Shown here one piece after another: positions 14,166-18,557 of a DNA stretch of 64,000 nucleotides (within the stretch, counting starts at the first letter, position 1; the number at the start of each line of letters is the position of its first letter). The stretch is from Natronosalvus rutilus (GTDB lineage Archaea; Halobacteriota; Halobacteria; Halobacteriales; Natrialbaceae), in NCBI RefSeq assembly GCF_024204665.1, contig NZ_CP100355.1, forward strand, positions 372,001 through 436,000. The letters run 5' to 3'. A model generated the notes under the pieces. That model made no database searches. It was not told where the DNA came from and saw only the letters and a program-made list of their open reading frames with translations. A program made the translations under genes and the position numbers.

Positions 14166-15095
14166 TCAGTCGTCGGCCGTCTCGAGTATCGCCGGATTAC
14201 TGACCTGCAGGCCTCCCTCGAGCGTTCGGATGGGGTAGGGGATGTCGATACCCGCCTCGTCGAATCGCTCCTTGACGCTGGTGACGTACTCTGCACGGGT
14301 ACGGACGAAGTCGGCCCGCGAGGGGTTCGCGATCCAGAACCGCGACTGGAGGCCGACGTCGGAGTCCCCGAGTTCGGTGAGTCGCACCGAGGGGGCGGGG
14401 TTGTCCATGATGTCGGGGTGGTTCTCGGCTTCCTCGACGATGATGTCCGTCGCCTCCTGGATGTCGTCGCCGTAGCCGATTCCGAAGACGAACTTCAGGC
14501 GGAGTTTGTCCGCCTCGACGGGATTTTTCAGGACGCCCTCGGTGAGAAGGCTGTTCGGCACCGTCAGCAGTTCGTTGTCGAATGTGCGAATCCGGGTGAC
14601 GCGCAGGCTGATGTCTTCGACGACGCCCGAATAGGTGCCGTCCTCCCACTCGATCCAGTCCCCGATGCGGAACGGTTTGTCGGTGTAGATGAAGATCCCA
14701 GCGACGAAGTTCGAGATGACGTTCTGGAGCGCGAGACCGACTGCGAGCGCCCCCGCGGCGGCGATTCCGGCCATCGACACGAGGAAGTTTCCGTAGTCGG
14801 CGGCGCCAAACGCGATGGCGACGCCGAGGAAGAGGACCGCGAACCTGGTGACCACCAGCAACGGCTTCTGGGCGTGCCGGTCGAGGCCGCGGCGATCCAT
14901 CGCCCGCTCGACCAGCGGAACGACGACCGCCCGGCCGACGAACCAGACGAGGAGCAGCGTCACCAGGAAGACCAGGCCGCTCTCGAGGGTCGCCGCGAGC
15001 GTCTCGTCGACCCCGGAGAGCCGGTCGAGTTGCTGGCCGATTGGCCCGAGGCCGTCCTGTAGGAGCGTTCTCGCCCCGACCTCGCCGCCGATCAT
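14166..15095 (-). CDS. MscS-family mechanosensitive ion channel
   Basis: This is a small-conductance mechanosensitive channel that releases solutes on hypo-osmotic shock. The 309-residue protein has three N-terminal transmembrane helices (about 40-60, 80-100 and 105-130). The pore helix and beta domain signature GLALQNVISNFVAGIFIYTDKPF is followed by RIGDWIEW and the cytoplasmic vestibule domain. Its ATG overlaps the stop of the YhbY-like gene by 4 nt, so it belongs to the rnp4-yhbY operon even though the functions differ. A second MscS gene lies at 41.3-42.4 kb. Confidence 0.92.
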   Translation of the reverse strand: MIGGEVGARTLLQDGLGPIGQQLDRLSGVDETLAATLESGLVFLVTLLLVWFVGRAVVVPLVERAMDRRGLDRHAQKPLLVVTRFAVLFLGVAIAFGAADYGNFLVSMAGIAAAGALAVGLALQNVISNFVAGIFIYTDKPFRIGDWIEWEDGTYSGVVEDISLRVTRIRTFDNELLTVPNSLLTEGVLKNPVEADKLRLKFVFGIGYGDDIQEATDIIVEEAENHPDIMDNPAPSVRLTELGDSDVGLQSRFWIANPSRADFVRTRAEYVTSVKERFDEAGIDIPYPIRTLEGGLQVSNPAILETADD

Positions 15096-15346
15096 CGATG
15101 GATCACTGCCGTGTGTCCTCGCGTGTCGATCAACTGGGCGTTGACCCGCTCGGCGAGGTCGGCCGCCTTCTCCTCCGTGGAACTGCCCGCTCGAGCCGCC
15201 CGGAGGAACTTGACTTTGACGAGGTTCTCGTTCGCAAGCTGGTCGTTGAGTTCGTCGACCACCGCGTCGACGCCGCTCTTCCCGACCCAGACAGTGACGT
15301 CGAGGTCGTGTGCGCGACGTTTGAGTTCCTGCTCGTGATCGTTCAT
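15092..15346 (-). CDS. YhbY/CRM-domain RNA-binding protein
   Basis: This 84-residue protein is a single CRM domain, a fold that binds RNA and is tied to ribosome assembly. VWVGKSGVDAVVDELNDQL with the loop G-K-S-G, then KVKFLRA and a terminal strand, match the family. The frame is open further upstream, but the ATG at 15346 (MNDHEQELKRRA) gives the standard length. Its position downstream of an RNase P subunit gene fits a role in RNA maturation. Confidence 0.9.
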   Translation of the reverse strand: MNDHEQELKRRAHDLDVTVWVGKSGVDAVVDELNDQLANENLVKVKFLRAARAGSSTEEKAADLAERVNAQLIDTRGHTAVIHR

Positions 15347-15410
15347 GGACCGCTCTATGAGGGCGGGCGGTTTCAATGTTCGCGATTCGAAAAACGCCTC
15401 GACTCCCCCG

Positions 15411-15686
15411 TCACTCGTACGGATAGCGCGCCTGGCTCCCGCAGTCGCAGGTGACGACGACGTGGCCGTCGCGCAGACGAACCCGGGCGTTCTTCCCCGG
15501 GCGAAGGTAGGCGTCACAGGCGTCGCAGGTGAATCGCTTGAACTGTCGCGGAAGTTCGAGCCGATTGCGTTCGGCGATTCGGCGAGCGAGCCTGACGTAG
15601 GCGCTCGCTCGCTCGTCGTCGCCGTCGGCGGCGGCCGCTCGAGCGAGGGCGTGGAGGCGGTCGATTCGCTCGGCGGCGACGCTCAT
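15411..15686 (-). CDS. rnp4: Ribonuclease P protein component 4
   Basis: This is a subunit of archaeal RNase P (Rpr2/Rpp21 family), which trims tRNA 5' ends. The 91-residue protein has an N-terminal helical pair (AAERIDRLHALARAA...YVRLARRIAERNRLELP). A zinc ribbon follows with FTCDACDAYLRPG and VTCDCGSQ, giving four metal-binding cysteines (CxxC and CxC). The ATG at 15686 is chosen because the upstream frame is Arg/Pro-rich and has no similarity. Confidence 0.93.
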   Translation of the reverse strand: MSVAAERIDRLHALARAAAADGDDERASAYVRLARRIAERNRLELPRQFKRFTCDACDAYLRPGKNARVRLRDGHVVVTCDCGSQARYPYE

Positions 15687-15912
15687 CGTCGGGTCGTTCG
15701 GCCGTCTCCTGTAATTAGGTACCGAAATCCGGCGACCTCGAGAGCGATGCGGGCACGGCGTCGGCCGTGACTTCGGTCGCGGCGGAAAGGCGACGACCGC
15801 ATCCGCGTGTCGATGCCGCAATACTGTTATACGGGCCCCGGTGAACTACTCGTGAGAACAGACCGTGATTCCCAGTGGGACAGCGACCGCCGACGGCGGA
15901 GATGCGACCGCG

Positions 15913-17721
15913 ATGGACCGACGCTCCCTGCTCGCGGCGACCGCCGCCGGCTGCTCGCTGTCGCTGAGTGGCTGCGTCCGCGAGATACGAAGCGCCGTCA
16001 ACCGGGACCGACTCGAGCCGCTCTCGGTGACGATCACGACCCAGCCGGCCGACGGCGATCGGCAGTCGATTCGACTCAGCCGGGAAATCGCCGCCAACCT
16101 CGAGGCGGTCGGAATCGACGTCCACGTCGAACTCCGGTCGCCCCAGGAACTCCGCCGGCAAGTCCTGGTCAACCACGACTTCGACCTGGTGGTCGATCGC
16201 CACCCCGGCGGCGCGGACCCCGATTTCCTGTACGAAGCGCTCTACTCCCGGTACGCCGAGGAGTCGGGCTGGCAGAACCCGTTCGGCGTCACGAACATAG
16301 CGATCGACGACCTGCTCGAGCGCCAGCGTCGGGTCGCGGATGCGGACCGACGCGAGGTAGTCGAGCAACTGGCGACGCTGGTCGCCCGCGAACAGCCGTT
16401 CGTCCCCATCTGTCGGCCCGACGAAGTTCGGCTGGTCCGCACCAGTCGATTCGACGGCTGGCGCGCCGAGGACATCACGACCCGCCTCGGCTACCTCGGG
16501 CTCGAACCAGTCGGCGAGGGCGGAGCGTTGCGCGGTGCGATCATGGACGCCGCCCCGTCCCAGAACGTCAACCCGCTCTCGGCACCGTACCGAGGGCCGG
16601 ACCCGGTCGTCGACCTCGTGTACGATCCACTCGCCATCGAGCCGCCGGGTGATGACGAGGTCGTGGCGTGGCTCGCCGAGGACTGGACCTGGGACGGTGG
16701 TGAGGGCGATGGCGACGGTGACGGTAACGATGGGGGCAATGGCAACGACAGCGGCGATAGCGACGACAGCGAAACCGGCACCGGCACCCTCGAGGTCACC
16801 CTCCGCGAGCACGCCTTTCACGACGGCGAGCCGGTGACAGCGGACGACGTCCGGTTCACCTACGAATTCCTCGCGGACACCTCAATGGGCTCGAGCGACG
16901 TTCCGGCCCCCTCGCCGCGATACCGGGGACGGACCTCGGTCGTCCAGTCGATCGACGTGCTCGACGAGCGAACGCTCGAGTTCGTCGTCGACGGCACCGA
17001 AGCCATCGCCGAACGAGCGCTCGTGGCACCCATCCTCCCGCGACACGTCTGGGAATCGCGATCCGACCCGCCGAACGTCCCTGGGGTTCGCCTCGCGCAG
17101 GGAACGACCGAGGCTCTCGTCGCGACCAATTTCCCGCCGATCGGCAGCGGCCCCTACCAGTACGCCGACCACGTGGATCGCCAGCACCTCACGCTCGAGC
17201 GCTACGCCGACCACTTCACGACTCGCGAGGACGTGAACCTGCCGGCGCCGACCGCCGAGTCGTTCCGGGCCCAGATCGACCCGCGGAGTACCTCCGCGAT
17301 CGCGTTGATCCGGGATGGCGACGCCGACGTGACGATTTCGCCGCTCGAGACGTACGTCCTGGACGACCTCGAGGCCGAGGGCGACGTCGAGCGGATCGAG
17401 TCGGAGACGGCGGCGTTCTACCACCTCGGGTTCAACGTCCGGCGCGCGCCGTTCGGCGACCCGTACTTCCGTCAGGCGGTCGCCGGCGTGATCGACGAGG
17501 CGTGGCTCGCCGAGACGGTGTTTCACGGCCACGCCGACCCGATCGCGACGCCGCTGTCCCCCGAGTGGACGCCGTCGTCGCTGGCGTTCGACGACGAAAA
17601 CGAAGACCCCGTCGTCCCGTTCCACGGCTCTGACGGCGATCTCGACGTCGAGGCCGCTCGAGCGGCGTTCGAGGACGCGGGGTACCACTACGACGGCGAC
17701 GCCCTGGTGGTGAGGCAATAA
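15913..17721 (+). CDS. Tat lipoprotein, peptide/nickel-type substrate-binding protein (SBP_bac_5) with permuted domain order
   Basis: This is a predicted exported lipoprotein: Arg-Arg followed by a hydrophobic stretch and lipobox LSGC within the first 25 residues. ATG 15913 (MDRRSLLAAT) is preferred; GTG 15865 would add 16 residues. The family binds peptides or metal chelates for ABC import. Residues of about 36-195 match the part that normally ends such proteins: ANLEAVGIDVHVEL, then a DFDLVV and DPDFL segment, a GxxNPFG segment, and R-x-x-V-E-Q-L with QPFVPI. The family's usual N-terminal half begins only at about residue 200 (GGALRGAIMDAAPSQNVNPL, later FHDGEPVTADDVRFTYEF). The protein stops after AAFEDAGYHYDGDALVV, exactly where the first segment would normally continue. 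An Asp/Gly/Asn/Ser-rich insert lies at about 261-291. A PAP2 phosphatase gene follows with a TAATG overlap; no ABC permease or ATPase is adjacent. Confidence 0.85.
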   Translation: MDRRSLLAATAAGCSLSLSGCVREIRSAVNRDRLEPLSVTITTQPADGDRQSIRLSREIAANLEAVGIDVHVELRSPQELRRQVLVNHDFDLVVDRHPGGADPDFLYEALYSRYAEESGWQNPFGVTNIAIDDLLERQRRVADADRREVVEQLATLVAREQPFVPICRPDEVRLVRTSRFDGWRAEDITTRLGYLGLEPVGEGGALRGAIMDAAPSQNVNPLSAPYRGPDPVVDLVYDPLAIEPPGDDEVVAWLAEDWTWDGGEGDGDGDGNDGGNGNDSGDSDDSETGTGTLEVTLREHAFHDGEPVTADDVRFTYEFLADTSMGSSDVPAPSPRYRGRTSVVQSIDVLDERTLEFVVDGTEAIAERALVAPILPRHVWESRSDPPNVPGVRLAQGTTEALVATNFPPIGSGPYQYADHVDRQHLTLERYADHFTTREDVNLPAPTAESFRAQIDPRSTSAIALIRDGDADVTISPLETYVLDDLEAEGDVERIESETAAFYHLGFNVRRAPFGDPYFRQAVAGVIDEAWLAETVFHGHADPIATPLSPEWTPSSLAFDDENEDPVVPFHGSDGDLDVEAARAAFEDAGYHYDGDALVVRQ

Positions 17722-18557
17722 TGTTCCTCCAGACGCTCGCACAGGTGATCGTCGTCGTCGCCGCCATGATCGTCGTCTCGACGGCGGCGTTCGCGGGTCG
17801 CCAGCGACTGGTCGAAACCACCGGAGACTTCCGCCGGCGGGTGGCAGCGATCCTCCCGATAGTGCTCGTCCTCGTGTCCGTGTTGTTGTTCAACAGCGTC
17901 GCCAGGGACCTCGCCCCCGAGGTGTCCTGGATGATCGGCTGGGAACTCACCGGGATGATCTACGACATCGAGGGTGACTTCATCGTCTGGCTGCAAGCCC
18001 AGGCGACCCCCGAGCTGACGGCGTACTTCTCGTTCATCTACATCTACGGCTACGTCTTCGTCCTCGTGTTTCCGGTGATCGCCTACTTCTTGCTCCCAAA
18101 CACGCGCCCGATCCGGGAACTGCTCGCGGCCTACACCCTCAACTACACCCTCGGCCTCGTCTGCTACGTGTTCGTCATCGCCTACGGTCCCCGAAACATG
18201 ATGCCCGAACTCATCCAGGCGCTACTGTACGATACGTACCCGCAGTACCAGCACCTCACCCGACAGGTCAACCGCAACACCAACGTCTTCCCCTCGCTCC
18301 ACGCCTCGCTCTCGACGACGGTCGCCTTGCTCGCCTACCGAACCCGCGAGGTCTACCGCGGCTGGTTCTGGCTGGCAGTCTGGCTGGCCGTCAGCGTCTC
18401 CCTCTCGACGATGTACCTGGGCATCCACTGGGCTATCGACGTGGTCGCGGGCATCGGCCTCGCCTGGCTCGCCGTCGAGCTCTCGACGCACCTCGTGGGT
18501 CGCTGGTCGGTCTACGACGGACTCGAGCGTCGTGGGCTGTGGAATCGGAGCCGCTGA
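17721..18557 (+). CDS. PAP2-superfamily membrane phosphatase
   Basis: This is an integral membrane protein of 278 residues with about six transmembrane helices. It has the acid-phosphatase motifs C2 (VFPSLHAS, near residue 190) and C3 (YLGIHWAIDVVAG, near 231-244), with the catalytic histidines present. Such enzymes dephosphorylate lipid phosphates or transfer phosphoinositol head groups; the substrate cannot be told here. The ATG shares one base with the stop of the binding-protein gene (TAATG), so the two are translationally coupled. Confidence 0.9.
   Translation: MFLQTLAQVIVVVAAMIVVSTAAFAGRQRLVETTGDFRRRVAAILPIVLVLVSVLLFNSVARDLAPEVSWMIGWELTGMIYDIEGDFIVWLQAQATPELTAYFSFIYIYGYVFVLVFPVIAYFLLPNTRPIRELLAAYTLNYTLGLVCYVFVIAYGPRNMMPELIQALLYDTYPQYQHLTRQVNRNTNVFPSLHASLSTTVALLAYRTREVYRGWFWLAVWLAVSVSLSTMYLGIHWAIDVVAGIGLAWLAVELSTHLVGRWSVYDGLERRGLWNRSR

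Follow-up and report, generated by a model that had tools for sequence, protein, structure and literature searches.

A circularly permuted family-5 solute-binding lipoprotein encoded together with a PAP2-type membrane protein in haloarchaea

The gene at 15913-17721 of the window (the whole stretch of 64,000 nucleotides of Natronosalvus rutilus DNA that was analysed) almost certainly encodes one complete family-5 (cluster C) solute-binding domain that is circularly permuted inside its second lobe, and the lipoprotein which it specifies is very probably coupled in function to a PAP2 protein encoded directly downstream. The features of the pair are as follows.

15913..17721, plus strand: gene for the permuted family-5 solute-binding lipoprotein (602 amino acids plus stop)
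15913..15975, plus strand: Tat lipoprotein signal, from the twin arginines at residues 3-4 (R3R4) to the lipobox cysteine (SG-C21)
16018..16503, plus strand: segment A, residues 36-197, corresponding to what is C-terminal in SBP_bac_5 proteins of normal order (profile 289-363 and beyond)
16504..16527, plus strand: new junction, residues 198-205 (EPVGEGGA), a short linker from the old C-terminus to the old N-terminus
16528..17718, plus strand: segment B, residues 206-602, equivalent to the normal N-terminal part (profile 1-282), with a short extra hairpin at its end
16705..16773, plus strand: acidic low-complexity insertion, residues 265-287, which varies between homologues (pLDDT <50)
17719..17723, plus strand: TGATG, in which the stop codon of the binding-protein gene overlaps the PAP2 start codon
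17721..18557, plus strand: PAP2_3 (Aur1-like) integral membrane protein of 278 amino acids (Pfam PF14378, E 1.8e-19)

PF00496 (SBP_bac_5) was the sole Pfam family found in the window protein, with no cluster B (sugar-binding) domain detected. Residues 249-595 aligned with profile positions 1-282 (the C part alone giving E 8.8e-42) and residues 39-113 with positions 289-363 (the first 201 residues alone giving E 0.002, short of Pfam's cut-off by itself), the two matches using the profile once, with zero overlap and in swapped order. These positions bear out an earlier note on this DNA, which had claimed that the protein starts with the segment that is normally C-terminal and carries the usual N-terminal half second; aligned separately, the N part fell on the C-terminal part of the profile and the C part on its N-terminal part. 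Against solved chains in the PDB (phmmer), the N part matched only C-terminal ends (6ofq 391-521, 6lzu 381-506) and the C part only N-terminal parts, and a normal-order paralogue from the same genome was matched in swapped blocks (query 301-558 to 168-387 and query 35-183 to 416-554), while that paralogue itself, as a control, spans profile 1-359 as one stretch. The break lies between a helix ending AGY (with the short extra C-terminal hairpin) and a strand beginning LSVTIT. The proposal in the earlier note that moving residues 36-195 would give the normal order holds in principle, for a segment of about 36-197, but the C-terminus does not end exactly where the first segment continues, as a hairpin of roughly 10 residues passes the normal break.

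Segment order was also scored with two HMMs, for head and tail, derived from five normal-order proteins in the N. rutilus genome, and this test found 95 ORFs permuted, 22 control ORFs normal and 0 mixed (counts which include many repeat copies of one gene under several locus ids). Every homologue of the window protein was scored as permuted, and so were all the proteins included afterwards from bacteria and from named haloarchaea. The earlier note had also suggested a search for haloarchaeal homologues with the same order, and full-length relatives of this kind were present in 119 of the 125 family genomes and in 263 of the 391 genomes sampled from the class. A chance or frameshift origin was rejected, since the same order is kept at 90% to 35% identity across genera. 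Because the segment order is swapped, the lipid anchor must sit before a segment that lies in the second lobe of normal members, and it follows from the known layout of the family, rather than from coordinates, that the anchored lobe would be opposite to the usual one. Residues G20 and C21 of the lipobox were invariant in 44 homologues of the window protein.

Structure prediction, another check proposed beforehand, gave a confident, compact AlphaFold model on 44 homologues (pLDDT 87, pTM 0.85), in which confidence was low only in the signal and the acidic insertion. By VIA-align, the part of the model from residue 198 to residue 602 corresponds to the opening ~330-350 residues of NikZ, AppA, DppA and their relatives (Z about 20-22), and the structural alignment ends at the last residue of the model. 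The window protein is thus modelled as a two-lobed clamshell, with the placement of segment A resting on sequence matches; the set of solved structures searched contained no permuted family-5 protein. In its coverage of the whole of PF00496, its modelled clamshell (Z 20-22) and its lipoprotein signal the protein resembles the SBP_bac_5/cluster C proteins (DppA, OppA, AppA, NikZ), but it differs from them in its swapped segments, in lacking an ABC permease and in having Gly99 at the position of the amine-binding aspartate of DppA. This is the residue which we take to contact the amino end of the peptide in DppA/OppA-type proteins, and its replacement by Gly99 suggests that ordinary peptides are not the obvious ligand and that the classical members are no guide to what is bound.

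Permuted proteins of this family are not confined to the PAP2-linked form. The N. rutilus genome carries a third permuted family-5 protein within a full Opp-type operon of a binding protein, two permeases and two ATPases:

L066:7520-9241 (contig C1, about 1,186,520-1,188,240), minus strand: third permuted family-5 protein, 573 amino acids

Similar Opp-type operons with a permuted protein were found in other haloarchaea (L100-L104, L113) and in bacteria (Nitratireductor, Ketogulonicigenium, Roseomonas, Neorhizobium and Maritalea), and permuted proteins with permeases nearby were found in other archaea of the phylum (L097-L099). A genome scan run with a narrow alignment added 69 more loci, of which all 67 testable ones were permuted; a permease lay within the flank at 66 of the 69 and a PAP2 gene at none of the 69. 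These loci are mostly from Alphaproteobacteria, with others from Betaproteobacteria, Deinococcota, Thermomicrobiota, Chloroflexota and Armatimonadota, several of the latter being metagenome bins. With a common break, the permuted form is found in normal Opp-type operons in N. rutilus, in other archaea and in about five bacterial phyla; in the ABC-linked proteins tested the break fell at Pfam positions 279-285 / 284-290 in archaea and bacteria alike. The ABC-linked relatives (L066 and those of Ketogulonicigenium, Roseomonas, Nitratireductor, Trueperaceae and Thermomicrobiales) share both segment order and break with the window protein, but they stand in operons of the order binding protein, permease, permease, ATPase, ATPase without PAP2, and they are annotated only as ordinary ABC substrate-binding proteins. 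No lipobox was seen in the signals of the bacterial permuted proteins inspected, so the permutation does not exist for the sake of lipid tethering. In a tree of re-ordered sequences, the free topology needs two changes, and a single origin was not rejected (AU p 0.2).

Some of the bacterial operons (L110, L114, L115, L116) adjoin genes for an M28 peptidase, an IclR regulator and hydantoinase/oxoprolinase, suggesting hydantoin- or pyroglutamyl-like ligands for their binding proteins. Longer permuted proteins (about 640-670 amino acids; L084-L088, L090, L093) also make up a separate clade in haloarchaea, with full tree support, and the one member checked (L104) lies in an ABC operon.

The normal-order family-5 proteins of N. 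rutilus generally lie close to permease genes, and the nearest BPD_transp match to the window gene lies about 145 kb off, so that no ABC permease accompanies it. What does accompany the binding-protein gene, in every locus examined, is a same-strand PAP2_3 gene of 270-300 residues directly downstream, and this also held in 8 of 8 distant genomes with coordinates for both genes. The TGATG stop/start overlap was present in 34 of 42 pairs, many genomes have two tandem pairs, and the pair also occurs on annotated plasmids of Natronorubrum, Halostagnicola, Haladaptatus, Halobaculum, Haloarcula, Salinigranum and Haloferax. N. rutilus itself has a second pair:

L039:7343-10243 (contig C1, about 3,158,340-3,161,240): second, diverged pair of binding-protein and PAP2 genes, with a 129-base gap and no TGATG

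Tight, overlapping coupling is thus not universal. The binding protein of this second pair has a large acidic insertion, and the permease nearest to this PAP2-linked copy is several kb off, in unrelated ABC clusters.

Across 391 haloarchaeal genomes both families were present in 263, neither in 128 and only one in 0, taking matches up to E 1e-25 for the binding-protein family and E <1e-40 for the PAP2 family; 13 further genomes, in which the PAP2 matches were all weak (E 1e-15 to 1e-20) and well separated from the strong ones, were scored as lacking it. The two family searches were independent, the PAP2 cut-off was set after the gap was visible, and an initial look had scored only a few candidates per genome. 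The distance matrices of the two families were correlated (Mantel r 0.88, with 0 of 2000 shuffles as high), a value inflated by tandem copies and shared descent. In the tree of re-ordered sequences the PAP2-linked binding proteins form one clade (SH-aLRT 100), and among the matches listed from 296 genomes of the phylum all PAP2-linked copies were haloarchaeal.

In the window the upstream side of the pair (14166-15821, minus strand) holds genes for an MscS-type channel, a YhbY-domain protein and RNase P component 4. Natronorubrum bangense (L112) has this set beside its pair as well, and many other loci include an MscS-like gene. In several loci outside the Natrialbaceae (L111, L121, L122, L123, L124, L125) an arylsulfotransferase gene lies just upstream, the pairs so flanked including those on plasmids of Haloferax, Halobaculum, Haloarcula, Salinigranum and Haladaptatus, which hints at surface sulfation or modification of a surface glycan or glycolipid. 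A link to the synthesis of glycocardiolipin or a sulfated glycolipid was weighed from the neighbouring genes, which gave it no direct support. In Salinigranum rubrum (L123:3658-4771) the binding-protein gene is annotated in two pieces (broken or misassembled), and the PAP2 gene is intact.

The PAP2 partner contains a PF14378 domain (70.7 bits against a cut-off of 27), and H194 (in FPSLH), H236 and D240, the His/His/Asp of the catalytic site, were invariant in an alignment of 41 sequences. Its model (pLDDT 89) was closest in fold to AUR1 inositol phosphorylceramide synthase (Z 17-18, the value of 18 being over 214 residues), followed by the LpxE phosphatase (Z 16.4), with soluble acid phosphatases near Z 13. 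Because AUR1 and then LpxE outscore the soluble acid phosphatases against this model, the partner is likely to carry out lipid-directed phosphotransfer or dephosphorylation. Kei1, the dedicated partner of AUR1, is to our knowledge not a binding protein of the family-5 kind. The AUR1-Kei1 enzyme (PDB 9ivc, 9vj4) shares with the haloarchaeal PAP2 protein its AUR1 fold and the FPSLH and H-x3-D catalytic residues, and it is an earlier instance of a PAP2_3 enzyme that has a partner of its own (PDB 9ivc being the complex).

We think it slightly better than an even chance that the product of the window gene is a lipoprotein which binds a ligand and has been put to a new use, as the external partner of a phosphotransferase or phosphatase of the PAP2 type, a biochemical role that we infer. 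The lipoprotein would fold as a clamshell on the outer face of the membrane, bind a small ligand there and dock on the PAP2 enzyme in place of an ABC permease, with the moved N-terminus setting the lipid anchor on the lobe opposite to the usual one. It might then present a soluble substrate or acceptor for transfer of a phospho-headgroup, or for dephosphorylation, at the outer leaflet; alternatively, the ligand-bound lipoprotein could switch the PAP2 enzyme on. More tentatively, a binding protein of an ABC importer may have been permuted and later taken over in haloarchaea by an Aur1-like lipid phosphotransferase as its dedicated external subunit, so that two genes would specify an enzyme of surface lipids or surface glycans that carries a receptor for its ligand.

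Other explanations were considered. The pair could be a phosphate-ester salvage unit, in which PAP2 dephosphorylates an external compound and the binding protein captures the substrate or product for later hand-on, and it would fit this that the closest structural matches include AccA-type proteins, whose ligands are phosphorylated opines (agrocinopine, for example), and that the PAP2 superfamily includes soluble acid phosphatases of similar fold. Nutrient scavenging of this kind seems unlikely, however, given that PAP2 matches best to AUR1, a lipid phosphotransferase, rather than to those soluble enzymes and that no importer gene adjoins the pair for uptake of the product. It is improbable, too, that the binding protein continues to supply an ABC importer whose genes lie elsewhere and that PAP2 is only co-regulated with it: the permuted relatives with ABC operons in the same genome do mean that a permease suited to permuted proteins is present, but such a spare permease was established for a minority of pair-bearing genomes at most, and the perfect co-occurrence with PAP2, the TGATG overlap and the separate clade all count against the idea.

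A different doubt concerns the permutation itself, as the N-terminal segment might have come from another gene and merely resemble the missing C-terminal part. The authors of the Tp0684 study weighed such an origin for their own permuted protein (PMC4990184), and the N segment of the window protein alone scores weakly, as given above. A fusion is nevertheless very improbable, as the pieces sum to one profile without overlap, the break is common to archaea and bacteria, and relatives give significant scores for the N segment (tail HMM E 2e-19 in L063; Pfam E 2.5e-08 in L115).

Tp0684 (TpMglB-2) of Treponema pallidum is a natural, circularly permuted lipoprotein whose structure has been solved and which binds glucose and changes conformation (PMC4990184). 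The window protein is like it in being a natural circular permutation of a two-lobed binding protein, in Tp0684 one that still binds its ligand, and in having homologues that are for the most part probably tethered. Tp0684 differs in being a cluster B sugar-binding fold rearranged in its N lobe (PMC4990184), as against family 5 here, and the permuted relatives in family 5 include untethered bacterial ones with ABC operons. The permutation thus adds another example to a type of rearrangement already known, this time in a fold family other than that of Tp0684 and across two domains of life; the pairing with PAP2 is the part for which the analysis knew of no close precedent. No report of permuted family-5 proteins or of the haloarchaeal pairing was found in the open-access library searched.

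The ABC-linked permuted relatives and the PAP2 partner, neither of which figured in the earlier note, weigh more than the permutation that was first noticed. Family-5 binding proteins rank with the most common importer components known, and a permuted branch of them, annotated without distinction, extends over archaea and several bacterial phyla. Nature has thereby set up an experiment on whether the starting point of the chain matters for lobe closure, anchoring and permease docking. The perfect co-occurrence of the haloarchaeal pair points to a membrane enzyme system, not yet described, throughout a class of archaea, and one that could be tested in the genetically tractable Haloferax.
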